Below are positions 14,486-37,600 of a stretch of 64,000 nt of DNA, in pieces. The first letter of the stretch is position 1, and the number at the start of each line of letters is the position of its first letter. The notes below the pieces were generated by a model. It was not told where the DNA came from and did not search any database. It was given only the letters and a program-made list of their open reading frames with translations. Origin of the DNA: Desmodesmus armatus (taxonomy: Eukaryota > Chlorophyta > Chlorophyceae > Sphaeropleales > Scenedesmaceae); contig VIIQ02000001.1 in NCBI GenBank assembly GCA_007449985.2, positions 918,501-982,500 of the forward strand, given 5' to 3'. Position numbers and translations under genes: made by a program.

Positions 14486-17400
14486 TCATTCTACAGCAAC
14501 TTCTGGGGCCCCAGCTGCTTGATCTGCGGGACGATCCCGCCACTGCTGCTGCTGCGCAGCGGCTTTTGCACGTTGCTGAACAAGCAGCGCACAGTTCTTG
14601 GCTGCAACTGCTGCCACCTCCATTGCTGAGGCTGCATTCTCCAGAGCATTGTTGTAGCATAGCCCAGGGCCAAGCAGGAAGGGCGCAAACTTCTCTGGCG
14701 GTTGAAACCTGTGCAGCAACACACAAAATGTTGATCCAGACACCTGTGTGGCAGAGAGCCAACCTTCACGTACACAAAGCACAACTCAGCAGCCTGAGGA
14801 TCAGCGCTGTATTTGATTTGTCACTCCTGTGCTCAAGCTGTAGCTAAGTATGCAGGCGGCAACAACACACACGCAGGGCAGCACCTCCCTTGCTGATTAA
14901 TCACACGTGCTATGCCATGGTGCGGCAAGTCAGCCCTTCACACAACAGTCCTGCATGGCCTGTGGGCCCCTGACCCCCAAACACGGTCACACTCCTGCAT
15001 GCATACATAACAGACTGTGAAATACAGTGTTCAAATCGAGGTTCAACAGCACTCACTTGGGATATGCCGCCCACGTCTTGCTGGCCACCACTGTGCCATT
15101 GACAAACAGCGTGCGCAGGTCGTGCCAGCTCAGCGGCTGCTCAGAAAACACCTTCCACAGAGGTATCTGCTCCGGTTCCTGCAGCTGCTGTCCAACTTGC
15201 TCCAACCCTTGCTTGCCAGCAGTGCTGTCCTGCTCCTGCTGTGCGTGCTGAGGGATGCTGCGGCTACCCACCTGGCCCCCGCAGACGTCTGAGCTGTCTG
15301 CCTCCTGAGGTACAGCAGTGACACTCACAGTCCCCTTATTAGCCACCACAGAGAACGGCGTTTGAGCCCTATCGGTTACAAAGATATCCCCAGGGGCTAA
15401 GTCAGCCCTGTTGAAGAAGGAGGCGTCGAGGTACCCAGTGACAAAGCTGGTGGTGGTTTGCTGGTAGCTGCGCGGCGGCAGGTGGGGTTTAGGGTCTAAA
15501 CCCTTGAGGGTCAGGCCGCTGCCTTCTAAGGGGGTGGCTATGATGACGGCATCATATGGGCCAAGTTCCTGCACCTCCCTGGGAACCTCCTGCTGATCTT
15601 CCTGCTGCAATGACGGCTGCTGCTGCTGCTGTGGCTGTAGCTGTTCATCTCCTGAGCTTAGGCTCCCACTGTGGCCTGTTGTATGGTGTGCAGCCGTCGC
15701 TGCTGCCTGCATTGCTGTTGCAGCAGCGGTGGCGGCTGTGGGCCGCACTGTCAGGTTGAACGTGCCGTCGCTGGCCATAGTGACAGTCTGGACGCTTGTG
15801 TGCAAGTGGAGTCCCTGCAGCTTGGCTGCTGCTGCCAGTTTCTGGGGTAATGCTGCATTGCCCTCCTTGATGGCGTAAACCTCAGGGTTTGCAGCTGGGA
15901 GGTATGACACAAGACCTGCGCATCAAATTCAGGGATGCAAGATATGCAGGTTGGGGGCAGGAGAAAAGCCATGAGGAGCCAGAGGTGCATGAGCTGACTT
16001 CCGTGTCGCGCTGAGCATGTACTGGAGGTCAGAGGGGACCTGCAATCGGGCAACACAAGGGGGATCAGTGTGCGGCAACTGCTCTCCCTGGCGCACCTGG
16101 TATGGTTCAAGGTTTAAGACTTCTGCAATGTTTGATGGAAGTCCCCAGACCGCCGCGCGCCCTGCTCCAGTCCCCACCATGCCGTCCCCCCAAAGCGCAG
16201 CAAAAATCACCTGCTAGGGCATTGAGCTGCTCATTGTTCTGGTTGTAGTTGATCCTGTTGATAGCGCCAGCAAGCTCGTCGATAAACCGCCCAGCACCGT
16301 AGCGCCACATGCCTTGCTTCAAATGGTCCTGCAGATTTGAGCAACAGGTGGTTGAGACAGCGTAAGCCACAAGGTTGACGCCACCCGAAGTCGCTGGACT
16401 GTAAAAGGAAGGTGCCTGTGCCAGGGGGACAGTCTCTGCCACTGACCTACGGCCAAAGTCCAGGTAGCGGCAAGGCGGATGAGCTACATTGTTGTTTGTG
16501 TAGTTGTGTTACAAGGTACAGCCTAGGGAAGAATGTCTTGTGAGCCCATTTAGCAAGAGTGAAACCAGTCCCGGTAGCCGATTGCTTTGTCTCCGGTGCC
16601 TTGCCGGCAGTGCCTACTACGGTAGCAGTCTCATGCATCTTGCTGAGTGAGCCTTTGGGTGTAGTCTGGTTCATAACAGCATAAGCAGCATCCAAACACG
16701 AGATACTTATTGCTTTTGAGGTGCAACTGGCCCGGTGCAGGGCAGTCACGTCACACCATGGACCCTGGCCACCACCCCGCACAGATCGTTGCCCACAGCA
16801 CTGTAGTAGTCAGGTGCCTCATTTTCAGGGGTCAGTTCTATGCAGTAGCACTCTGGACAACACCAAAAGCCTGCAAACAGGGTGTATGATTTATGTTTGT
16901 GGCGATGTTGGGGCGCTGGGGGCACCCCATGCCCTAGCCACCACCCTCATGTGCCTTGCCGGCAGTGCCTACTATGGTAGCAGTCCCACGCATCTTGCCG
17001 AGCGCTTGTCTGTGTGCAGTCTCGCTCATAACAGCATAAGCAACTTTCTAATACAGAAAAATTATTGCTGTTGAGGCGCCACTGACCCGGTGCAGGGCAG
17101 TCACGTCACACCTTGGACCCTGGCCACCACCCCGCACAGATTGTTGCCCACAGCACAGTAGTAGTCAGGTGCGTCATTTTGAGGAGTCAGTTCTATGCAG
17201 TAGCACTCTGGACAACACCAACAGCATGCAAACAGTGTGTATAATTTATGTTTGTGCACAATGCACGTGGCAATGCTGGGGCGCTTTGGGCACCCCATGC
17301 CCAACCCACCACCCCTCCTCCACATGTGCCTTGCCGGCAGTGCGTACCACAGGCAGTAGCAGTCTCATGCACCTTGCTGAGCTAGCCTCTTGGTGTAGTC

Positions 17401-20400
17401 TGGCTCAGAACAGCATAAGCAGCATCCAAACACGAAATACTTCTTGCTGTTGAGGCGCAGGGCAGTCACGTCACACCATGGACCCTGGCCACCACCCCGC
17501 ACAGATTGTTGCCCACAGCACTGTAGTAGTCAGGTGCCTCATTTTCAGGAGTCAGTTCTATGCAGTAGCACTCTGGACAACACCAAAAGCACGCAAACAG
17601 CGTGTATAACTATGTTTGTGGCAACGTTGGGGCGCTTGGGGCACCCATGTCCTAGCCACCACCCCTCATGTGCCTTGCCCGCAGTGCCTACTACGGTAGC
17701 AGTCTCATGCATCTTGCCGAGCGGTATCTGTGTGCAGTGTCGCTCATTACAGCATGAGCAACTTCCAAACACGTAAAAGTTATTGCTGTTGAGGCGCCAC
17801 TGGCCCGGCGCAGGGCAGTCACGTCACACCATGGACCCTCGCCACCACCCCGCACATGTTGGTGCCCACAGCACAGTAGTAGTCAGGTGCGTCATTGTGA
17901 CAAGTCAGTTCAAGGCGGTAGCACTCTGGCCGACACCAACAGCATGCAAACAGTGTGTATAATTTATGTTTGTGGCAACGCGGGGGCGCTTGGGGCACCC
18001 CATGCCCAGCCGCCACCCCTCATGTGCCTTGCTGGCAGTGCCTACTACGGTAGCAGTCTCATGCATCTTGCCGAGTGCTTGTCTGTGTGCAGTCTCGCTC
18101 ATAACAGCATAAGCAACTTTCAAACACGAACTACTTATTGCTGTTGAGGCGCCACTGGCCTGGTGCAGGGCAGTCACGTCACACCATGGACCCTGGCCAC
18201 CACCCCGCACAGATTGTTGCCCACAGCACAGTAGTAGTCAGGTGCGTCATTTTGAGGAGTCAGTTCTATGCAGTAGCACTCTGGACAACACCAACAGCAT
18301 GCAAACAGTGTGTATAATTTATGTTTGTGCACAATGCACGTGGCAATGCTGGGGCGCTTTGGGCACCCCATGCCCAACCCACCACCCCTCCTCCACATGT
18401 GCCTTGCCGGCAGTGCGTACCACAGGCAGTAGCAGTCTCATGCACCTTGCTGAGCTAGCCTCTTGGTGTAGTCTGGCTCAGAACAGCATAAGCAGCATCC
18501 AAACACGAAATACTTCTTGCTGTTGAGGCGCAGGGCAGTCACGTCACACCATGGACCCTGGCCACCACCCCGCACAGATTGTTGCCCACAGCACTGTAGT
18601 AGTCAGGTGCCTCATTTTCAGGAGTCAGTTCTATGCAGTAGCACTCTGGACAACACCAACAGCACGCAAACAGCGTGTATAACTATGTTTGTGGCAACGT
18701 TGGGGCGCTTGGGGCACCCATGTCCTAGCCACCACCCCTCATGTGCCTTGCCCGCAGTGCCTACTACGGTAGCAGTCTCATGCATCTTGCCGAGCGGTAT
18801 CTGTGTGCAGTGTCGCTCATTACAGCATGAGCAACTTCCAAACACGTAAAAGTTATTGCTGTTGAGGCGCCACTGGCCCGGCGCAGGGCAGTCACGTCAC
18901 ACCATGGACCCTCGCCACCACCCCGCACATGTTGGTGCCCACAGCACAGTAGTAGTCAGGTGCGTCATTGTGACAAGTCAGTTCAAGGCGGTAGCACTCT
19001 GGCCGACACCAACAGCATGCAAACAGTGTGTATAATTTATGTTTGTGGCAACGCGGGGGCGCTTGGGGCACCCCATGCCCAGCCGCCACCCCTCATGTGC
19101 CTTGCTGGCAGTGCCTACTACGGTAGCAGTCTCATGCATCTTGCCGAGTGCTTGTCTGTGTGCAGTCTCGCTCATAACAGCATAAGCAACTTTCAAACAC
19201 GAACTACTTATTGCTGTTGAGGCGCCACTGGCCTGGTGCAGGGCAGTCACGTCACACCATGGACCCTGGCCACCACCCCGCACAGATTGTTGCCCACAGC
19301 ACAGTAGTAGTCAGGTGCGTCATTTTGAGGAGTCAGTTCTATGCAGTAGCACTCTGGACAACACCAACAGCATGCAAACAGTGTGTATAATTTATGTTTG
19401 TGCACAATGCACGTGGCAATGCTGGGGCGCTTTGGGCACCCCATGCCCAACCCACCACCCCTCCTCCACATGTGCCTTGCCGGCAGTGCGTACCACAGGC
19501 AGTAGCAGTCTCATGCACCTTGCTGAGCTAGCCTCTTGGTGTAGTCTGGCTCAGAACAGCATAAGCAGCATCCAAACACGAAATACTTCTTGCTGTTGAG
19601 GCGCAGGGCAGTCACGCCACACCATGGACCCTGGCCACCACCCCGCACAGATTGTTGCCCACAGCACTGTAGTAGTCAGGTGCCTCATTTTGAGGAGTCA
19701 GTTCTATGCAGTAGCACTCTGGACAACACCAAAAGCACGCAAACAGCGTGTATAACTATGTTTGTGGCAACGTTGGGGCGCTTGGGGCACCCATGCCCTA
19801 GCCGCCACCCCTCATGTGCCTTGCCCGCAGTGCCTACTACGGTAGCAGTCTCATGCATCTTGCCGAGCGGTATCTGTGTGCAGTGTCGCTCATTACAGCA
19901 TGAGCAACTTCCAAACACGTAAAAGTTATTGCTGTTGAGGCGCCACTGGCCCGGCGCAGGGCAGTCACGTCACACCATGGACCCTCGCCACCACCCCGCA
20001 CATGTTGGTGCCCACAGCACAGTAGTAGTCAGGTGCGTCATTGTGACAAGTCAGTTCAAGGCGGTAGCACTCTGGCCGACACCAACAGCATGCAAACAGT
20101 GTGTATAATTTATGTTTGTGGCAACGCGGGGGCGCTTGGGGCACCCCATGCCCAGCCGCCACCCCTCATGTGCCTTGCTGGCAGTGCCTACTACGGTAGC
20201 AGTCTCATGCATCTTGCCGAGTGCTTGTCTGTGTGCAGTCTCGCTCATAACAGCATAAGCAACTTTCAAACACGAACTACTTATTGCTGTTGAGGCGCCA
20301 CTGGCCTGGTGCAGGGCAGTCACGTCACACCATGGACCCTGGCCACCACCCCGCACAGATTGTTGCCCACAGCACAGTAGTAGTCAGGTGCGTCATTTTG

Positions 20401-23400
20401 AGGAGTCAGTTCTATGCAGTAGCACTCTGGACAACACCAACAGCATGCAAACAGTGTGTATAATTTATGTTTGTGCACAATGCACGTGGCAATGCTGGGG
20501 CGCTTTGGGCACCCCATGCCCAACCCACCACCCCTCCTCCACATGTGCCTTGCCGGCAGTGCGTACCACAGGCAGTAGCAGTCTCATGCACCTTGCTGAG
20601 CTAGCCTCTTGGTGTAGTCTGGCTCAGAACAGCATAAGCAGCATCCAAACACGAAATACTTCTTGCTGTTGAGGCGCAGGGCAGTCACGTCACACCATGG
20701 ACCCTGGCCACCACCCCGCACAGATTGTTGCCCACAGCACTGTAGTAGTCAGGTGCCTCATTTTCAGGAGTCAGTTCTATGCAGTAGCACTCTGGACAAC
20801 ACCAAAAGCACGCAAACAGCGTGTATAACTATGTTTGTGGCAACGTTGGGGCGCTTGGGGCACCCATGTCCTAGCCACCACCCCTCATGTGCCTTGCCCG
20901 CAGTGCCTACTACGGTAGCAGTCTCATGCATCTTGCCGAGCGGTATCTGTGTGCAGTGTCGCTCATTACAGCATGAGCAACTTCCAAACACGTAAAAGTT
21001 ATTGCTGTTGAGGCGCCACTGGCCCGGCGCAGGGCAGTCACGTCACACCATGGACCCTCGCCACCACCCCGCACATGTTGGTGCCCACAGCACAGTAGTA
21101 GTCAGGTGCGTCATTGTGACAAGTCAGTTCAAGGCGGTAGCACTCTGGCCGACACCAACAGCATGCAAACAGTGTGTATAATTTATGTTTGTGGCAACGC
21201 GGGGGCGCTTGGGGCACCCCATGCCCAGCCGCCACCCCTCATGTGCCTTGCTGGCAGTGCCTACTACGGTAGCAGTCTCATGCATCTTGCCGAGTGCTTG
21301 TCTGTGTGCAGTCTCGCTCATAACAGCATAAGCAACTTTCAAACACGAACTACTTATTGCTGTTGAGGCGCCACTGGCCTGGTGCAGGGCAGTCACGTCA
21401 CACCATGGACCCTGGCCACCACCCCGCACAGATTGTTGCCCACAGCACAGTAGTAGTCAGGTGCGTCATTTTGAGGAGTCAGTTCTATGCAGTAGCACTC
21501 TGGACAACACCAACAGCATGCAAACAGTGTGTATAATTTATGTTTGTGCACAATGCACGTGGCAATGCTGGGGCGCTTTGGGCACCCCATGCCCAACCCA
21601 CCACCCCTCCTCCACATGTGCCTTGCCGGCAGTGCGTACCACAGGCAGTAGCAGTCTCATGCACCTTGCTGAGCTAGCCTCTTGGTGTAGTCTGGCTCAG
21701 AACAGCATAAGCAGCATCCAAACACGAAATACTTCTTGCTGTTGAGGCGCAGGGCAGTCACGTCACACCATGGACCCTGGCCACCACCCCGCACAGATTG
21801 TTGCCCACAGCACTGTAGTAGTCAGGTGCCTCATTTTCAGGAGTCAGTTCTATGCAGTAGCACTCTGGACAACACCAAAAGCACGCAAACAGCGTGTATA
21901 ACTATGTTTGTGGCAACGTTGGGGCGCTTGGGGCACCCATGTCCTAGCCACCACCCCTCATGTGCCTTGCCCGCAGTGCCTACTACGGTAGCAGTCTCAT
22001 GCATCTTGCCGAGCGGTATCTGTGTGCAGTGTCGCTCATTACAGCATGAGCAACTTCCAAACACGTAAAAGTTATTGCTGTTGAGGCGCCACTGGCCCGG
22101 CGCAGGGCAGTCACGTCACACCATGGACCCTCGCCACCACCCCGCACATGTTGGTGCCCACAGCACAGTAGTAGTCAGGTGCGTCATTGTGACAAGTCAG
22201 TTCAAGGCGGTAGCACTCTGGCCGACACCAACAGCATGCAAACAGTGTGTATAATTTATGTTTGTGGCAACGCGGGGGCGCTTGGGGCACCCCATGCCCA
22301 GCCGCCACCCCTCATGTGCCTTGCTGGCAGTGCCTACTACGGTAGCAGTCTCATGCATCTTGCCGAGTGCTTGTCTGTGTGCAGTCTCGCTCATAACAGC
22401 ATAAGCAACTTTCAAACACGAATTACTTATTGCTGTTGAGGCGCCACTGGCCTGGTGCAGGGCAGTCACGTCACACCATGGACCCTGGCCACCACCCCGC
22501 AGGTCGTTGCCCACAGCACTGTAGTAGTCAGGTGCCTCATTTTCAGGAGTCAGTTCTATGCAGTAGCACTCTGGACAACACCAACAGCATGCAAACAGCG
22601 TATATGATTTATCTTTGTGGCGACGCTGGGGCGCTTGGGGCACCCATGCCCTAGCCGCCACCCCTCATGCGCCTTGCCGGCAGTGCCTACTACGGTAGCA
22701 GTCTCATGCATCTTGCCGAGCGCTTGTCTGTGTGCAGTCTCGCTCATTACAGCATAAGCAGCATCCAAAAACAAAATACTTATTGCTTTTACGGCGCCAC
22801 TGGCACGGTGCAGGGCAGTCACGTCACACCTTGGACCCTGGCCACAACCCCGCAGATGTCATTGCCCACAGCGCTGTAGTAGTCAGGTGCGTCATTTTGA
22901 GGAGTCGGTTCCATGCAGTAGCACTCTGGCCCACACCAACAGCGTGCAAGCAGCGTGTATGAATTATGTTTGTGGCGACGCTGGGGCGCTTGGGGCACCC
23001 CATGCCCTAGCCGCCACCTCTCAGGTGCCTTGCCGGCAGTGGAGTGAATCTACTACGGTAGCAGTCTCATGCATTTTGCTGAGCTAGCCTTTGGGTGTCG
23101 TCTGGCTCATAACAGCATAAGCAGCATCCAAACACCAGGAACTTATTGCTGTTGAGGCGCCACTGGCCCAATGCATGCTGGTCAGTGATTTGAAGGCGTG
23201 GAGTCCGATCCCCCTTTTTTGCATTGTGAAGACTGCCAGGCTTTTTTGTGATGTACCAATCAGCGGCAATGAGCCTGAGCTGCAGTGCTGCATGCAACAG
23301 TGCTTGAAGCACAAAGGGGGGATGCGTACATACACACCACAGGTGTGTAGCTAAGTCCTGGCGGCCAGCTGGACGATGTATGCTGCTGGTGCAGCATTAG

Positions 23401-28940: not shown

Positions 28941-30977
28941 ATGAGGCGTACATTGATAGCGCTGGCCCTGCTGGGCATGGTGGCCCTAGCAGCAGCCGAG
29001 GTCAGTTTTTGGCCACCTGCTGCTGCAATACACAGGCTTCCCCAGCCAGTAGAGTGCACATCGTCACTAAGCAAGTATGTCACAGCAACTGGAAGCCTTT
29101 GTGGCCACTAAAGTGCCGTGTGTCTCTGCTCTGCCACACCATGTCCTGCTGCAGCAAAAGAGCAAGGACAAATGGCACAAGTAAGTTGGCCCAGAAACTG
29201 GTCGAGCAGTGTGCCAATCAAGTGGCCTCCTTGCAGCTGACACAAAGCAGCTTCATGAGTCTGGTTCACGTGGTCATGCATGTTATGCTGGCCGCAGCAC
29301 CTCTGCATGCTGCCAAACAAGCAATAATACACATGCAGGCATGTGTGGCTAGGCGTCATGTGCGTATGATCTTGGGGTGTGCCTCACATGCAGAGGATTG
29401 CATCACCTGCACTACTTCAGCATGTTGACACCGCAGTTTCAGGACACTCACATTTAAATACCTTCACCCCCTTCACCTACACAGGGCCGAGCCTGAATAC
29501 AAGGAGTACAAGAAGGATGACTACAAGGAGGACGAGTACAAGGACGAGTACAAGAAGCCTGAGTACAAGGATGACTACAAGAGCAAGGATGAGTACAAGT
29601 ATGAGGGCAAGGATGACTACAAGAAGTCCGAGTACAAGAAGCCTGAGTACAAGGACGAGTACAAGAGCAAGGACAGCTACAAGTATGAGAGCAAGGACAG
29701 CTACAGCAAGGATGACTACAAGAGCAAGGATGAGTACAAGTATGAGGGCAAGGATGACTACAAGAAGTCCGAGTACAAGAAGCCCGAGTACAAGGACGAG
29801 TACAAGAGCAAGGATGAGTACAAGAGCAAGGACAGCTACAGCAAGGATGACTACAAGAGCAAGGACAGCTACAAGTACGAGAGCAAGGATGACTACAAGA
29901 AGTCCGAGTACAAGAAGCCCGAGTACAAGGACGAGTACAAGAGCAAGGATGAGTACAAGAGCAAGGACAGCTACAGCAAGGATGACTACAAGAGCAAGGA
30001 CAGCTACAAGTACGAGAGCAAGGATGAGTACAAGAAGCCCGAGTACAAGAAGCCCGAGTACAAGGACGAGTACAAGAGCAAGGATGAGTACAAGAGCAAG
30101 GATGAGTACAAGAGCAAGGATGAGTACAAGTATGAGGGCAAGCCCGAGTACAAGGACAAGGACAGCTACAAGTATGAGAGCAAGGACAGCTACAACAAGC
30201 CTGAGTACAAGAGCAAGGACAGCTACAAGTACGAGGGCAAGGATGAGTACAAGAGCAAGGATGAGTACAAGTACGAGAGCAAGGACAGCTACAAGAGCAA
30301 GGATGAGTACAAGAAGCCTGAGTACAAGGATGAGTACAAGAGCAAGGACAGCTACAAGTATGAGAGCAAGGACAGCTACAGCAAGGACGAGTACAAGAAG
30401 TCCGAGTACAAGAAGCCTGAGTACAAGGATGAGTACAAGTATGAGAGCAAGGACAGCTACAAGAAGCCTGAGTACAAGGATGAGTACAAGTACGACACCA
30501 AGGACAGCTACAAGAGCAAGGACAGCTACAAGTATGACAGCAAGGACAGCTACAAGTATGACAGCAAGGACAGCTACAAGAGCAAGGATGAGTACAAGTA
30601 AGACACAGCACACATGCATGATTGTGCTTTCTGGCTGTGATCATGTGCTATCATAGCGACCAGAGCTTTGTGTTGTGCGCCTTAGCTGTCACTGCCGATT
30701 GCATGCAAGACATAGCAGTAATGAGCACGAAGGTGGAATTACGGCATTGCAGCACAGCCTCTGTGCCACAGTTGGCATTGCAAACCGCAACAACTTGCTC
30801 GCCTAAGGCAGACGGCCAGTCTGACTTTCAGTTGCACGACCCACCACCGCACCTGGACAGCACAGCTACACATGCAGCCCTAGTGTACTATGTTCAGGCA
30901 GAGACCTGACAAGCTGTGTGCCCTGCTTCGTCGCCTGTAGGCCTGCCACCCCTCCTGCCTACAGCAGCAAGCCTTAA
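28941..30977 (+). CDS. secreted Tyr/Lys-rich repetitive protein
   Basis: Four exons: 28941-29000, 29155-29180, 29485-30597 and 30941-30977; phases agree throughout and give about 411 residues. Exon 1 encodes a textbook signal peptide (MRRTLIALALLGMVALAAAE), with likely cleavage after an Ala near residue 19. The 26-base second exon gives QKSKDKWH. The third encodes about 370 residues made almost only of Lys, Tyr, Asp, Glu and Ser, with scattered Pro and Gly. Short words recur (DEYK, DDYK, KKSEYK, KKPEYK, SKDSYKYE, SKDSYSK) in longer blocks of roughly 45 residues. Acidic and basic residues look nearly balanced, and hydrophobic residues other than Tyr are absent. The end is either a TAA directly after EYK (30599-30601) or, at the same place, a consensus AA|GTAAGA donor spliced to 30941, which adds KPATPPAYSSKP. 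I know no family with this repeat. Composition suggests an extracellular matrix, wall or adhesive protein able to cross-link through Tyr. Confidence 0.75.
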
Positions 30978-32624
30978 GTGGAGCCTGCACAACCTGCTGC
31001 CACCAAAGGATGAAATGGTGAGTCATGTTGAGGGTTAAATGTCGGGCGAAGTGTGCATGGCATGCAATCCTTGCGCGGACTGCTGAAAGACACTGTGACT
31101 CAACCCAACCTTTGCGACTGAAACGATTACTGTACTGTACTGTACTGTATGAGCATTTCCTCAAATTTCATCGACGTTGCTTGTATCTGCTGCCACCCAC
31201 AGGATCGGCGCTTCCGCGGACGAAACTCCAAGGAACGAGTCGATGAGCGTCGAGCGTCGCGTGTCTTCCAGCGTGCGTTTGTTCACAGCGTTCGTGACTT
31301 TTTCTTGTTGATTCGCTTGCAAAAAAGCTCCGCCTGGCGCTTCTAGGCTTCAGCGTAAGATGGTCAGCATGACTCGTGTGTGGGCCTTGTTTGGGCTGGT
31401 CAGCGCGGCATGCCTCACTGTGTGGAGGCATGATCGTGTGTTGCCCTCTATCCAGTCTCCATGTGCAGTTTCTGCTGATTTCTTAGTATTGCTTCATTCT
31501 GTTTGGCGGGGAATTGTGTTGACATTACTGCGAGCAATTGCACGCGGTCTGGTCGGTCCAATTTCTTCAACAGGGTCGTGAGTGATGTCTAGCGCTCTGC
31601 ATGGATGTGGCCAAAGTGTGATGGGATGGTCCTGATTCTTTGGGATGTTTCTTCACACGGGTGGGGCGTTGCTTCCTGCAGGCTTGGTGCAGGCCACCTA
31701 GGGCGGGAGGCTAATGGCACCACTGGCATGCTTAGCGCAAGTTTTCTGTTCTGCTTGTGTGTGCAAGTGTGACAGCTGCCTGGGAAGGGATCAACTTTGC
31801 TTTCTTGAGCAAAGGGTATGCATACGGCACTGCAAAGTGTCTTTGAGTGTTGCACATCTTCTAAAGATTGTGAGCACCAATAACTGGCCAGCGCTGCATA
31901 AGTGCTGCCAGGTTGTGCCAACACACCCAGCCCTGCATAAGGGTTGACAAACCAATTTTGGTGATGGCCTCTGAGTCACATCAAGCGTTGAATGTGTTTC
32001 AACAGTCTAGTTGAATTCAACATTCATACACCCCGGAATAAATGGAATATTCAGAAGCTTTGTGAAGGCAATCATTGGCAACCAGCTCTGATATCTGTAT
32101 GGCATGTGCAGTGGCAGTCGGAAAAGTGAGGCCAGCAGTAAAGCATCTCATCATGCACCATATCGCCAGCAGTTTCATATTCATGATGCAGAAGCAAAAA
32201 ATCTACCTAGGTGATCAAACAGCACCACCAGACATGTCTGGGAAAGTATCGAGCCTTCCAGCGCTTGGGCCGCTTGTGGCCACGTCATAACATGTGTACA
32301 GGACATGGGACAAACACTATAGACGAAGATAAAACACTGCTCAAGGCTGCTCCTCACATGTTGCTCAGCTGATACCAAACAACACTACTGCAGCCAAAAA
32401 CTAGTGAGTTGTCTGTGCAGATACAACAAACACAGCAGCACTCCCCAAAGAGCACAGTGCTCCACTGCACCTTGTGCCAAGCAAGTTGGCTGTGATGTGT
32501 TGTAACACAAGGCTTGATGGCCATGGTGATGCATGAAAGGTCAGCCAACAACCAACAACCACACGTATGACAGTGTGCACCGTCAGCAGCAGCTGCAACA
32601 GAACGCAACGCGTGCATGTATGCC
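30978..32624. other. long intergenic region without a supported gene
   Basis: Only short reading frames without splice context were seen on either strand. 31129-31149 carries a short CTGTA/TACTG pentamer repeat. The region is less CAG-rich than the genes. It presumably contains the 3' UTRs of the two converging genes. Confidence 0.45.
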
Positions 32625-34005
32625 CTATGTGTCGAAACCATCCAGACCCCAAATGCCATCATCCATCTGTGCTACTTCAATCCTGCTATAGCCAGGCGGC
32701 ACCTTTGTGATGCAAGCACGCACTACTGCAGGCGACGTAGCCGCTGCTTTGTCCTGCTCTGGATCGCCGCTGTATTTGTACACCTCAACCTGCAGGATGC
32801 AAAGCAGAAGCGGCAGCCGCCAGCTGGGTGACAAACAGACAGCTGTTTGGGAGAAACGGTGGGGCATGCGTAATCATCATCCAGCATGATGAGCAGGGTG
32901 CTGTAGCATTGGAGCGCCTGCGAGGGGGTGAATTGAGTTGGCATGGCTGCCAGCCATGTAGCCATGCTGCCAGCAGTGCTGCATTGCTGAGGGCACATGC
33001 ACAGACAGCGACAAGCAACAGTTGCTGGCGCGCAGCTGTGGGGAGGCTGTGATGACGACAACCATTCACCAATTGCGCCCCACTGCACAGGATGGCACAA
33101 CCTACTGCTTGCAACCTGAGCCTGCAGCCTCCGCTAAGAGGTGTGGCATGTTACTGTCGTGCGCACCTCACAAATGCCGCAGTTCCCTTGCCAACACCCT
33201 GTAGGGATGGTCACTCCACAGCTGCTGGCCACCTGCACAGAAACACACAATGCTTGTAGTAATGCCTTGTGCAGTCACATACAGCGTGTCTGTGATTGTC
33301 ACAGACAGGGTGATGTTTGCGTACCAACAGCGCACAGGCACTTCACCATAGAGTGTCCTCCAGGTGCACAGCTGATGGTGCCAATTTACATTGCACAGCA
33401 ATCTGGTCAGACAATTGACAAGTTGCGACCTTGCTGCTGCTGCTCCTTCTGCTCCTTCTGCTGCTGCCCTGGTATTGCAGCTGTGCCCACGTGGCTGTGC
33501 CTCCACCAGCACAAACCTGCACTAGGTCATCTCCAGGAGCAGCCACAGCACTGACTTGGTCTTCTCTGAAGTACACTGTGACACTCTGTGCTTGAGGTAT
33601 ACAGCCCGCTCGCAATCTTGGCCTGCTGAGCTGGGGTTGCAACCTCCCTACTGTCCAGCTGAGGTGCATGCTGCTGCTGTTGCTGCCTGGTGATCCGCTG
33701 GACCACGGTGAACGAAAATACGCCCAACTGATCTTTCTGACTTGAGACTTGTTCTGTTTTGAAATGGAACAGTCGGCTGATCCTGGACACGGATTGCTTG
33801 GCGCGATCGACAAGCTTGATTGCTACAGCCTCGAGCCAGGCGTTTGTAGTGCGCTTTGGGTATGACCGTGAATCAGATAGGATGTGCATGACAAGATGAG
33901 CACGAGGTGGATTGCAGGCTGTCCCACAGCTTCTCTTGCTGGGAAAGTCTGTTCAAACTCCTGCCAGCCTGGCATGGTGCAATTTGCAACGTTGACGGCA
34001 TGCAT
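32625..34005 (-). CDS. unidentified multi-exon gene
   Basis: Not recognised. From the right, an ATG at 34005 opens MHAVNVANCTMPGWQEFEQT. The frame then moves to SRSYPKRTTNAWLEAVAIKL and FHFKTEQVSSQ (about 33880-33600), VTVYFREDQVSAVAAPGDDL (about 33590-33350), GQQLWSDHPYRVLARELRH (about 33237-33170), AQLVNGCRHHSLPTAARQQL with an Ala/Leu-rich helix (about 33090-32930), and a clear last exon, 32792-32625 (VEVYKYSGDPEQDKAA; AQMDDGIWGLDGFDT then TAG). Several borders fit GT-AG rules (TTCTGTGCAG and CCTGTGCAG acceptors, a GTGAGG donor), but phases between the first three pieces are not fully resolved, so exon limits are approximate. No domain could be named. It does not look like a transposon protein. 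Confidence 0.4.
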
Positions 34006-34626
34006 TTACCCTAACATATTGTGCGTAACAGGTTGATGGTAGATGTGATTGCTATTCAAGCACAGCATACATCTTCATTGCGCCAGTCCTCAACGAAGCA
34101 CTACCATTACCTCTTGCTGTTTTCCACAACCTCTGTCTGACAGCATACTTGGCAACATTACCATGTCACGGTTGCACACTTGTAGGACTATTCACATAAG
34201 CAGATAACATGCAATCGAGGGACAAACCTAAAGTGCCACCGGGAGCCGTGCTGGCTTGCATGTTGCAGCAGACCGTGCGCCAACAGCCCACGAACATAAG
34301 GAATGAGGAAGACCACCAAGCCAATGCTGCAGGGGTACAACTAGGGTAGCAGCCCCCCAAGCACAACATAACAATCACAATTTGACCAGCCAAAGCCTGC
34401 GTACAGTGTGCCAACACAATAACAATCCCTACGTGCAGGGTTCCCACCCACCAACCCTACCGCCTGATGTACATGCGCTGCAGAGGCTCTTGCCACATAT
34501 GCAGCACTTTGAAGCACGCACAAGTGCCACTCACCCATCCATCGAACTCCGCGCTGTTGCTGTGATCCATCCTATCAGCCCCATCACCTGATCGACACAA
34601 ACTACACAAGCTGTAGCTGCAGCAGC
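34006..34626. other. intergenic region, nothing recognised
   Basis: Lies between the start of the unidentified minus-strand gene and the stop codon of the lipase gene on the same strand. It should hold the lipase 3' UTR and the downstream gene's promoter; no element could be identified. Confidence 0.4.
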
Positions 34627-37600
34627 TCAGGCATACACGCGCACAAGGTATGCTGTGTCGCCCAAGCGCTCCTTGTAAACAGACTCTTCCAGGGGCCTCA
34701 CTGGCAGGTGCTTGTCTGCTGCTGCAGCAGCCAGCTGTGCAGATGACGCCTGTAGGGGCATGGCAGATATCACCGGTGAAACAGCAGCAGCAGAGTATCA
34801 AAAACTTTCAAGGCAGTGGCAATCGGGCGAGCGATTACATGAAGTGAAACATAGGTGTACAGCCGTCTGACAGGCACTGCTGGGCTGAGACATCATGATG
34901 GCCCACTCCTGGCAACACGCACAGCCAATGAAAAGCATGCAGGCAGCAAATCAGCACTGCCATCGTTTGCTGCACGTCCTACTGACAGTAGACAATGCTT
35001 TGCATGACAGCCTCACAACCTGCCCACAACCCCAATCTATTCCCCATTCCACCCACCTTCTCCAAAGCCTGGTCATGGTCTAGCGAGTGCGCCTTGGGCG
35101 GCCGTGCATCCCTACCCGCCTCTGCAGCCCCACTGCCCACACGCCCCTGCTGCTCGTCCGCCACAATCATGTTCTCATCCGCTGCTAGGTGATCCATAAG
35201 CGACTCTGCCCTCTCAAACCCACCCAACCCTGCATCAGCACCACCCCCGCTGCTGCTGCTGCCATCACCCTGAGGGGACAATCCATGTGGCTGCTGCGCA
35301 GCGTCTTGCTTGCCGCTACTGCTGGCCTGTGCTGCCTGCTGCTGCTCCCATTGCTGCTGGAGCTGTAGGGCTGCTGGTGTGTTGCTGAGGGGCAGGTGGT
35401 CCTGCATGAAGGTGTGGCTGGACCATATGATCACATCCTGCACCTGCTGGGGGTCAACCTGAGCCTCAGGAGCTGTCTTGGCACCAGCCTGCACACACAC
35501 AGGACAAAAGCGCAACAGTCCTGAGAGCAACTCCTGGGGAAACAGGAGAACCGAAAAGGCAAAGCCAGACCAGTATCGAAGTGAGCTGGGTACTGCAAGC
35601 TCTCCTGCTGACATGCACTCACGAGCAGCTGGGGCTGGCTCATGCAACTGGTGGGCTGCACCGAGCAACAGCATGCACCAAACATTATGAGCACCCAACA
35701 CCTGAACGGGCAACGTGCAAGCTAGCGATACGCAGCCACAGCGGCGCAGGTGGTATACGAGAATACCAGTATACAACCCTCCACTCACCAGCTTCCTGAG
35801 CTGGTTGCTGACCCAGGGGTTGATGAGGAAGGGTAGGTCTGTGAAGCTGCCGTGGCTGCTGCCAGCAGGCACCACGTGAATGGCACCACCTCCAATACCG
35901 CTGCTGTCATTGCTGCCATTGCTTCCAGTGGTGGCTGCCACAGGGATGCCACGTGCCATGGGCCTGGATGTTGCCCTGCTGCTGCTGTTGCTGTTACTGT
36001 GGCAGCAAGACTTGAACACCGCTTCCTGCCGTGCACCATCACACCACATCTTGCCAGGCATGTTCCAGTCCTGCGAACAGCATCAAGTAGCACAGCAGAG
36101 CAGCAGCACTAACCGCGTGAGTACCGAGCATTACTGACGTTCTGGCAGGACGCCTGGAAACCAGGTGACAATCGCAGTCTGTAGTAGAAGCGCTGGGACT
36201 TTTGGGATAAGCCAAATTGAACACCTGGCGCTTGACCCTGATCCTTCGATAGGGATATAGCAACAGCCTCCACTGTCACAGCGCAGACAGCTCACATGCA
36301 AGAGGTGTGCAAAATGGTGCTTACTTGAGATCCCAGGACTAGCAGTGGGCTGTTGGTCTGCCATCCCTTGAGCGCAGCGCTGTTGCTGGGCAGCAGAGGC
36401 CACCAAGGGTCCAGGGCGATGCCACACTTGAACTCTGAATGAAGCAGCAGGCACGAACATGAATGCGGCAGCAGACACCACCATGAAAGGTGACGATGTG
36501 TAGCCCAAGGTTCGGTTTTCATTCAAGCATGGACTGGGATTGCTGTGCTACGAAACAAGTTGCATGCTCACCACGCCTGGCATGACATGTCGTGCCAGCT
36601 GGTTGTGATGCACCCTCGTTCATGGATACTAACAAGACGCACCGCCTACCTCCGTGAGCCGCCACTGCAGCAGCTGCTGTTGCGCCTCCACAGGAGTGCC
36701 CCATGACCGCCATCCTGTCAAGGTCCAGCAGGCCCTTGAAGGTAGACAGGGGCGAGGAGTGGCCTGACAGGCTCAGCCCAGAGATGTCAGCACCTGCAAG
36801 CATGCAGGCCGTCAGGTGTACAACCACGGAACAGCGCGCACCACCACCAGCATGCAGCAAAACAAGGCAGGCTTGTGGCAGCTGGTGCTTGTGGCAGCAG
36901 TGGCAATCAAGGCAAACAGCAACTGACGTCCAACGTGGCTTCGCAGACCCTGCCTACACCCCATGGGATCCACCTTCGCCTGTGCTAAGGCCCCCCACTT
37001 GCCTGTGTTCATTGCCTGCAGCACCCGAGCCATGGTGAGGCACTCCTCTACACGGTAGTCACACTTGGCCTCGAGCTCAGCACCCTTGCCCAGGCCTTGC
37101 AGCAGCTTCCACTCGCCATTGGCAAGCTGTGACAGCAGCAGGAGCAGGGCGAGGCACAGCGTTTCAAGAACAGCACTGAGCCTTCCACACAAGAGCAGCC
37201 TGGACGGTCGAGTCTTGCAGACTTGCACAAGCCAATCGGGGTGAGCTATTGACGGCAGCAAGGACAACAACAGCCCCAGGCAACAAGGTGAGGTTTCCGT
37301 TGCGGCCGGGCAATTTGTACAGCACGAACCACGCAACCATTGCACTGCTCCTGCGCATAACAGGAGGGGGGGGCTGTTCATGCTCATAGCAGCAGAATCT
37401 ACAATGGCAGCTACACCCCTGCAAGAGAAAAAGCACTGCCCCACCTATGCAACTACCAGGTGCACAAGCAGCCACCACCATCCCCAGACTGTGCCTTCAC
37501 AGTATGCGCAGCCGCGCAAGGGCGCTCTGCACTGCCAACGACAGGTCACGATCATGGCACTACAAAGAGTGCTCACCTCTGTGCAGCAGGCGGTGCCGTC

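Follow-up and report, generated by a model that had tools for sequence, protein, structure and literature searches.

The window, the 64,000-nucleotide stretch of DNA analysed here, carries a putative four-exon gene between positions 28941 and 30977. Splicing of this segment joins the exons into a single continuous frame of 411 residues:

28941-29000, + strand: exon 1, MRRTLIALALLGMVALAAAE followed by the donor gtcagt in phase 0; it encodes the putative signal peptide MRRTLIALALLGMVALAAA and E20, with the cleavage site judged by eye
29001-29154, + strand: intron 1, 154 bp, GT-AG
29155-29180, + strand: exon 2, 26 bp, between the acceptor tgctgcag and the donor gtaagt (phase 2); it encodes QKSKDKWH plus two bases of the codon that follows
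29181-29484, + strand: intron 2, 304 bp, GT-AG
29485-30597, + strand: exon 3, 1,113 bp, between the acceptor cacag and the donor gtaaga; it consists of (D/E/S)YK words, with longer repeat periods near 42 and 135 bp
30598-30940, + strand: intron 3, 343 bp, gtaaga...tgtag
30941-30977, + strand: exon 4, 37 bp, after the acceptor tgtag; it completes a Lys codon, then encodes PATPPAYSSKP and ends in the stop TAA

The initial annotation had proposed this four-exon model, which the sequence bears out: the introns are GT-AG and the exons are in frame. A model built by exon chaining agrees on exons 2, 3 and 4 and splits exon 1 wrongly, because its codon scores penalise hydrophobic residues. Retention of intron 3 would bring an immediate stop (TAA at 30599-30601) and remove the tail PATPPAYSSKP alone, so that three- and four-exon models carry an identical repeat. 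The tail is absent from the ends of all models of the paralogues described below. The usual poly(A) signal of green algae is TGTAA; it does not occur in 30,602-32,500.

The neighbouring genes, in the scanned parts of the window at 11.7-16.6, 24-40.6 and 47-51.9 kb, give no pointer to function. Upstream on the + strand are weak TPR matches at about 26-27 kb, below Pfam cut-offs, in a gene ending near 27.86 kb that we take to be TTC1-like. Beyond it, on the minus strand, lies a prenylcysteine lyase gene (C-terminal part at about 15.0-15.6 kb, E 1e-34). Downstream, no Pfam domain was found at E 0.1 within 30,978-35,915, beyond which the minus strand carries a PAF-acetylhydrolase and a HAD hydrolase. 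A satellite at 16596-23169 (355-bp unit, about 18 copies, 82% matches) sits between the lyase exons and a weak NAD-binding match at about 25.3 kb on the minus strand, below the Pfam cut-off. This match may be the N-terminus of the lyase, in which case the 355-bp array may lie within an intron. Scans of the window for Rfam families and tRNAs found nothing.

The composition of the encoded protein is extreme. The 391 residues past residue 20 comprise 20.2% Tyr, 29.7% Lys, 15.3% Asp, 13.3% Glu and 14.1% Ser, with 4.1% Pro, 1.0% Gly and one Trp; Ile, Leu, Val, Met, Phe and Cys do not occur at all. The earlier description of a Lys/Tyr/Asp/Glu/Ser repeat without aliphatic residues and with charges near balance is thus accurate (Asp and Glu 29%, Lys 30%, net charge +4), and the same charge, with the signal peptide recognised by eye, agrees with its proposal of a secreted polyampholyte. 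By computed composition the protein is an extended, soluble polyampholyte, and it is predicted to be secreted. The 78 gaps between successive tyrosines are regular: 33 span 6 residues, 20 span 5, 14 span 2 and 9 span 4, with one gap each of 3 and 8. Lysine in the repeat exon is encoded by AAG in 111 of 111 cases, and synonymous variation is found at Asp (GAC/GAT 36/23), Tyr (TAC/TAT 69/9) and Pro (CCT/CCC 7/5). A structure prediction is consistent with disorder: mean pLDDT is 46 and none of 371 residues reaches 70, although AlphaFold was run on a single sequence without an alignment, which makes the test weak.

Is the reading frame real? Several frames are open across the repeat, long minus-strand ones among them, so openness by itself is no proof. 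The locus could then be no gene but an expanded minisatellite, open in several frames by chance, and the selection signal inside the exon, being weak, leaves room for this. Near-identical 60-nt blocks inside exon 3 are offset by 3n (371 overlapping pairs, against 0 and 0 elsewhere), a pattern that any unit of 3n bases would also produce. Among the six frames, EYK shows the smallest ratio of amino-acid to nucleotide differences (0.47 versus 0.50-0.69 over 306 overlapping pairs); over 5 independent pairs it has 19 changes versus 21-27, a weak test. The long minus-strand frames over the repeat were rejected, as no splice or signal-peptide support for them was seen.

Evidence from outside the window makes the minisatellite scarcely credible. 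We searched the 115.8-Mb assembly (831 contigs, with the window on contig C1) using the DNA of the window gene (2,037 nt) and obtained 24 matches, its own place included, whereas a reversed control of 600 nt of the repeat exon gave none. One match, on contig C739, belongs to a paralogue of 12 exons. All 11 of its introns are GT...AG, and splicing gives a frame of Tyr/Lys repeats all through. Its putative signal peptide, MSKWFVAVALLGMVALAAAE, closely resembles that of the window gene, with 89% DNA identity over 45 nt, donor included. Among its donors are AA|G ones, and intron retention there would give AAG TGA, as proposed for intron 3 in the window. A chance-open repeat accounts poorly for in-frame splice sites on both sides of the window repeat, for a signal-peptide exon common to C739 and a further paralogue on C192, and for a Tyr/Lys frame kept in every exon of the C739 gene. 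The C739 paralogue is the strongest support for the reality of the frame.

The window gene thereby seems to belong to a large Tyr-rich family, apparently undescribed. DNA searches with four paralogues gave 78, 68, 17 and 115 matches; most of these pieces are exons, and each query's own place is counted among them. Together with the search by the window gene they matched 21 contigs. Tyr/Lys/Asp/Glu repeat frames are present in 16 of the 17 stretches inspected, on 13 of 14 contigs; the matched contigs outside this inspection are C742, C743, C334, C81, C69, C71 and C279. One member, on C563, was accepted under a looser rule only (KEDKKYDSKEDKKYDS), and the stretch on C697 (L018), which has no Tyr-rich frame, was dropped. 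A bias-corrected search of the genome at the protein level returned 4 matches, the window gene and three pieces on C597, so the evidence for the wider family comes from DNA matches and inspection of the frames. Common descent is best supported, as far as the sequences can tell, for the members on C597, C739 and C192; for the others, part of the likeness could be convergent composition.

A second link among members is the signal-peptide exon. A pattern of the ALLGMVALAAAE type, in phase 0 at the GT, occurs with at most 3 mismatches at 8 places in the genome, and its backward control occurs at none. The pattern was built from the window and C739 copies, whose 0 mismatches hold by construction; the copies at C192, C742 and C743 differ from it by 2 mismatches. 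The pairs of genes on these three contigs are 99.7-99.97% identical; the assembly probably shows a single tandem pair three times over, and the distinct genes with the signal-peptide exon then number four. In the C192 pair a close copy of the exon precedes the tandem genes, and the model of the second gene starts at an ATG other than the common exon. The models at C1:1411k and C666 open with looser but clear signal peptides; the C666 model, which had joined two genes, was cut by hand for the shuffle test below, and it and others contain doubtful tiny exons. Exon chaining placed no reliable start in C597, C657, C127, C374, C692, C83, C812 and C1:1470k and yielded no model for L013, and we did not count these as signal-peptide members.

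What do the members have in common? The spacer words between tyrosines differ: EYK in the window and C597; SYYK/KYDDKYG in C739, C374 and C692; KYED in C657; SKDSKYGKD in C127; YKPEYK in C812 and C83; and GYDKYG in C192, C666 and C1:1411k. The common plan would be a signal peptide followed by charge-balanced repeats with Tyr about every 2-6 residues. Six members were chosen for comparison with composition-matched shuffles (the window protein, C739, C192, C1:1411k, part of C666 and the core of C657). In all six, charges are less segregated (by delta) and tyrosines more evenly spaced (by the spread of their gaps) than in 1,000 of 1,000 shuffles. Across them Tyr ranges over 20-30%, net charge from -5 to +4 and Gly over 1-21%: what is constant is regular Tyr and balanced charge.

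Repeat exons of the GYDKYG and YKPKKEYY kinds are densely clustered in two regions, C1:1470-1502 kb, on the window's own contig, and C666:220-268 kb; their density suggests recent tandem expansion. On C127 (L012, 6070-6948) a Tyr-rich repeat stands between two globular-looking segments, neither of which has a Pfam match above a cut-off. The layout resembles that of pherophorins, but the spacer is Tyr/Lys.

Searches for relatives elsewhere agree with the earlier statement that no named family was known. Even at E 10 Pfam returns nothing for the window protein, and there is no credible match in protein databases: among the best-sharing 7,992 candidates scored from 5.8 billion proteins, none matched at E 1e-3. 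A single PDB match at E 1 was dismissed as chance-level. Bacterial gene callers might have put relatives in the wrong frame, so the +1 frame was searched as well; none of 7,997 candidates matched it. In a phmmer control the window protein and a shortened copy scored highly, at 704 and 395 bits, despite bias correction. The open frame of the repeat exon contains no in-frame ATG, GTG or TTG; relatives may therefore never have been called as proteins, and absence from protein searches is weak evidence. At the DNA level, exon 3 gave 4 and 106 pattern matches to viral and GTDB contigs, respectively, and tblastn confirmed none. Among ten paralogue frames scanned against Pfam, nothing exceeded a cut-off; matches below it include a C597 frame to Extensin_1 (E 0.003, 17.8 bits, cut-off 105) and a C597 frame to Decapeptide PF25296 (E 0.009, 16.3 bits, cut-off 45).

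The C192 protein fared differently: 11 of its 144 candidates matched. Seven of these (P0003, P0004, P0005, P0007, P0008, P0009 and P0011) look like exon fragments of algal genes, and the signal peptide of P0007 closely resembles that of the C666 gene. The other four (P0001, P0002, P0006 and P0010) look like bacterial proteins in which GYDxxGYDxxG repeats stand beside other segments. They have the GYDKxGYD word in common with the C192 branch but differ in their other, globular-looking segments and in having no similar signal peptide, and none was returned by the window protein's own search. Their likeness is by word only, and possibly reflects convergence. The wider family thus seems to exist in other sampled algae; the EYK branch, with no possible start codon in its repeat exon, has so far been seen in this genome only.

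How does the protein compare with known systems? Like extensins and other hydroxyproline-rich glycoproteins (HRGPs), pherophorins included, some of which are Tyr-cross-linked, it would be a secreted repetitive wall protein. Unlike them it is strongly charged, has 4.1% Pro and no Pfam match, and SPP is absent from its 411 residues; it has neither the repeated Ser-Pro(3-5) blocks of extensins and HRGPs nor the pherophorin domain DUF3707 (PF12499). Diatom proteins such as AC3362 of Amphora coffeaeformis are also Tyr-rich, secreted and at the algal surface, but they are built on KG dipeptide repeats, a comparison made by description from passages of one study (PMC4220933). An exaggerated hydrophilicity, repeats and predicted disorder are also what a LEA or hydrophilin-type protector against stress or desiccation would show, here with a secretion signal. 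We consider such a role very unlikely: Pfam at E up to 10 finds no dehydrin or other LEA domain in the window protein, most LEA proteins have no signal peptide, and evenly spaced Tyr is not known as a LEA trait. The window protein would appear to represent a sequence family that is new, within a functional kind that is known, the Tyr-rich secreted structural repeat proteins.

Mussel foot proteins are the closest counterpart in composition: they too are secreted, repetitive and rich in Tyr and Lys. The traits given for them in a passage of PMC4220933 (Tyr >10%, Lys >11%, repeats, secretion) are found in the window protein, at 20.2% Tyr and 29.7% Lys. It differs in that Asp and Glu balance its Lys, Pro is scarce and there is no sequence match, for example to Decapeptide PF25296. 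Could it be a Tyr/Lys-rich adhesive, or a spine or bristle protein, that acts through DOPA in mussel-foot style? Besides the composition, tyrosinase genes with signal-like N-termini in the genome would fit this. The Tyr-rich diatom protein AC3362, however, was on the cell wall and missing from adhesive trails, according to a passage of PMC4220933, and we regard the adhesive as distinctly unlikely. The initial annotation had also named underwater adhesion and condensate formation as roles, and none of our results supports either.

Regular tyrosine is the constant feature, and enzymes able to act on it are encoded in the same genome. A domain search found tyrosinase exons on C18, C65 (at least 3 copies) and C71, in 9 matches; the genes lie at C65:192-214 kb (at least three in a row), C18:35-37 kb and C71:122 kb. 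Two of the C65 genes, read unspliced, have signal-like N-termini upstream, MGVKGTVTAFVLFCCCALVAVNA and MASRLAVGLLLALCAATVYADA. Both contain WHRAY, and DPLFWLHH is present in L052; we take these to be tyrosinase copper-site words. Exons of An_peroxidase, known by domain matches only, gave 15 matches, in about three animal-type haem peroxidase genes at C132:40-54 kb and C783:102-107 kb, two of them in tandem. All these candidate enzymes lie on contigs other than the window's. For chlorophytes at large, passages of one survey report no PPO genes found in five other genomes (PMC3472199), and passages of a later survey report tyrosinase-type proteins (PMC10541563). The pherophorin domain DUF3707 (PF12499), searched exon by exon, has a single match in the genome, on contig C567. 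Chlamydomonas and Volvox have large pherophorin families.

The reading we favour, while granting that it may equally well be wrong, is that the window gene encodes a secreted, disordered, proline-poor protein that helps to build the wall or outer coat and is set by oxidative tyrosine cross-linking. It is favoured by the signal-peptide exon and repeat frame in common with paralogues, the fine charge mixing, the weakly supported disorder, the regular Tyr, the oxidising enzyme genes, the single pherophorin-domain match and a precedent: passages of PMC6912462 describe isodityrosine and transglutaminase (Lys-Gln) cross-links in the Chlamydomonas zygote wall. The protein would enter the secretory pathway and, as computed from its sequence, would stay extended and soluble, since opposite charges are interspersed on a fine scale and it has no aliphatic residues. 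Known chemistry and the enzyme genes suggest that outside the cell tyrosinase, haem peroxidase or both would oxidise its tyrosines, giving DOPA/quinone or (iso)dityrosine, and that the quinones may react with lysines. Evenly spaced links would then yield an insoluble hydrated mesh. The differing spacers of the paralogues (EYK, KYED, GYDKYG) would tune stiffness or suit particular wall layers or life stages. Oxidation of Tyr, which the initial annotation had raised by analogy, is thus reasonable chemistry in a genome with haem peroxidase genes and tyrosinase genes, two of the latter with signal-like N-termini. As to place, surface ornaments are our guess; passages of PMC9372998 report Scenedesmus surface spines as glycoprotein.

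The protein might instead be secreted and remain free of cross-links, as a soluble, hydrated polyampholyte in the mucilage or inter-layer space that serves as a spacer, a lubricant or a binder of metal or water. Near-neutral charge, fine charge mixing and the lack of aliphatic residues all favour a soluble extended coil. A plain hydrophilic spacer, though, would have no need of Tyr, which is kept at 20-30% and evenly spaced in six members despite their differing spacers, and we think this alternative unlikely.

Published work on walls bears on the cross-linked wall or coat protein in several ways. In S. obliquus, most LC-MS/MS spectra of maternal-wall protein went unidentified, for which the authors suggest modification, and the main wall polypeptide is related to Chlamydomonas gp3, according to passages of PMC11839794. 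According to PMC9372998, the most abundant amino acids in Scenedesmus sp. B2-2 walls were Gly, Glu, Asp, Thr and Ala, and at day 10 positive side chains amounted to 350 versus 667 nmol/mg for negative ones. Most of the wall protein of that strain is therefore of another kind, and Lys/Tyr proteins in such a wall could be minor components or be confined to particular layers or stages. Acid hydrolysis converts Asn and Gln to acids, and oxidised Tyr would be under-counted. The open-access literature yielded no account of a tyrosine-rich Scenedesmus cell wall protein; for green-algal tyrosine-rich wall proteins the nearest was the diatom study, and the papers met on dityrosine and green-algal walls were, judging by title, not about such a protein.

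A broader proposal is speculative, and we think it probably wrong: that Scenedesmus-type algae largely replaced Chlamydomonas-like proline-rich wall glycoproteins with expanded, proline-poor Tyr/Lys/Asp polyampholytes, which would be hardened through DOPA/dityrosine by secreted tyrosinases and haem peroxidases and would have been overlooked in resistant walls and ornaments. They would have been overlooked because of tiny tryptic peptides, low-complexity masking and repeat exons without in-frame start codons. Digested in silico with trypsin, the window protein yields 3 peptides of at least 7 residues out of 104 and the C739 protein 5 out of 97, so trypsin-based proteomics would miss these proteins even if unmodified.

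Scenedesmus-type algae have tough, multilayered walls, whose toughness hinders industrial use and whose proteins are poorly known; this is why these genes matter. A large set of putatively secreted Tyr-rich repeat proteins and candidate oxidising enzymes in one genome offers concrete genes to test. The earlier view of a single gene is enlarged: besides the window protein, the same genome encodes many other Tyr-rich repeat proteins. If the proposed chemistry is true, it would be a further case, from a green alga, of a charge-balanced protein material hardened through tyrosine, and useful in the design of polyampholyte glues and gels.

A last observation concerns the mitochondrial genetic code of the same assembly, by which the host is most likely a member of the Sphaeropleales and probably of the Scenedesmaceae. 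The two cox1 stretches on contig C278 contain 19 in-frame TAG codons in their matched parts and 20 in their open frames, and one matched part also contains TAA. TCA accounts for 0 of the 37 Ser codons in the open frames, an overlapping off-frame stretch (2 TCA) being left out. TAG is read as Leu in the chlorophycean mitochondrial code, and a lack of TCA agrees with the Scenedesmus one (tables 16 and 22).
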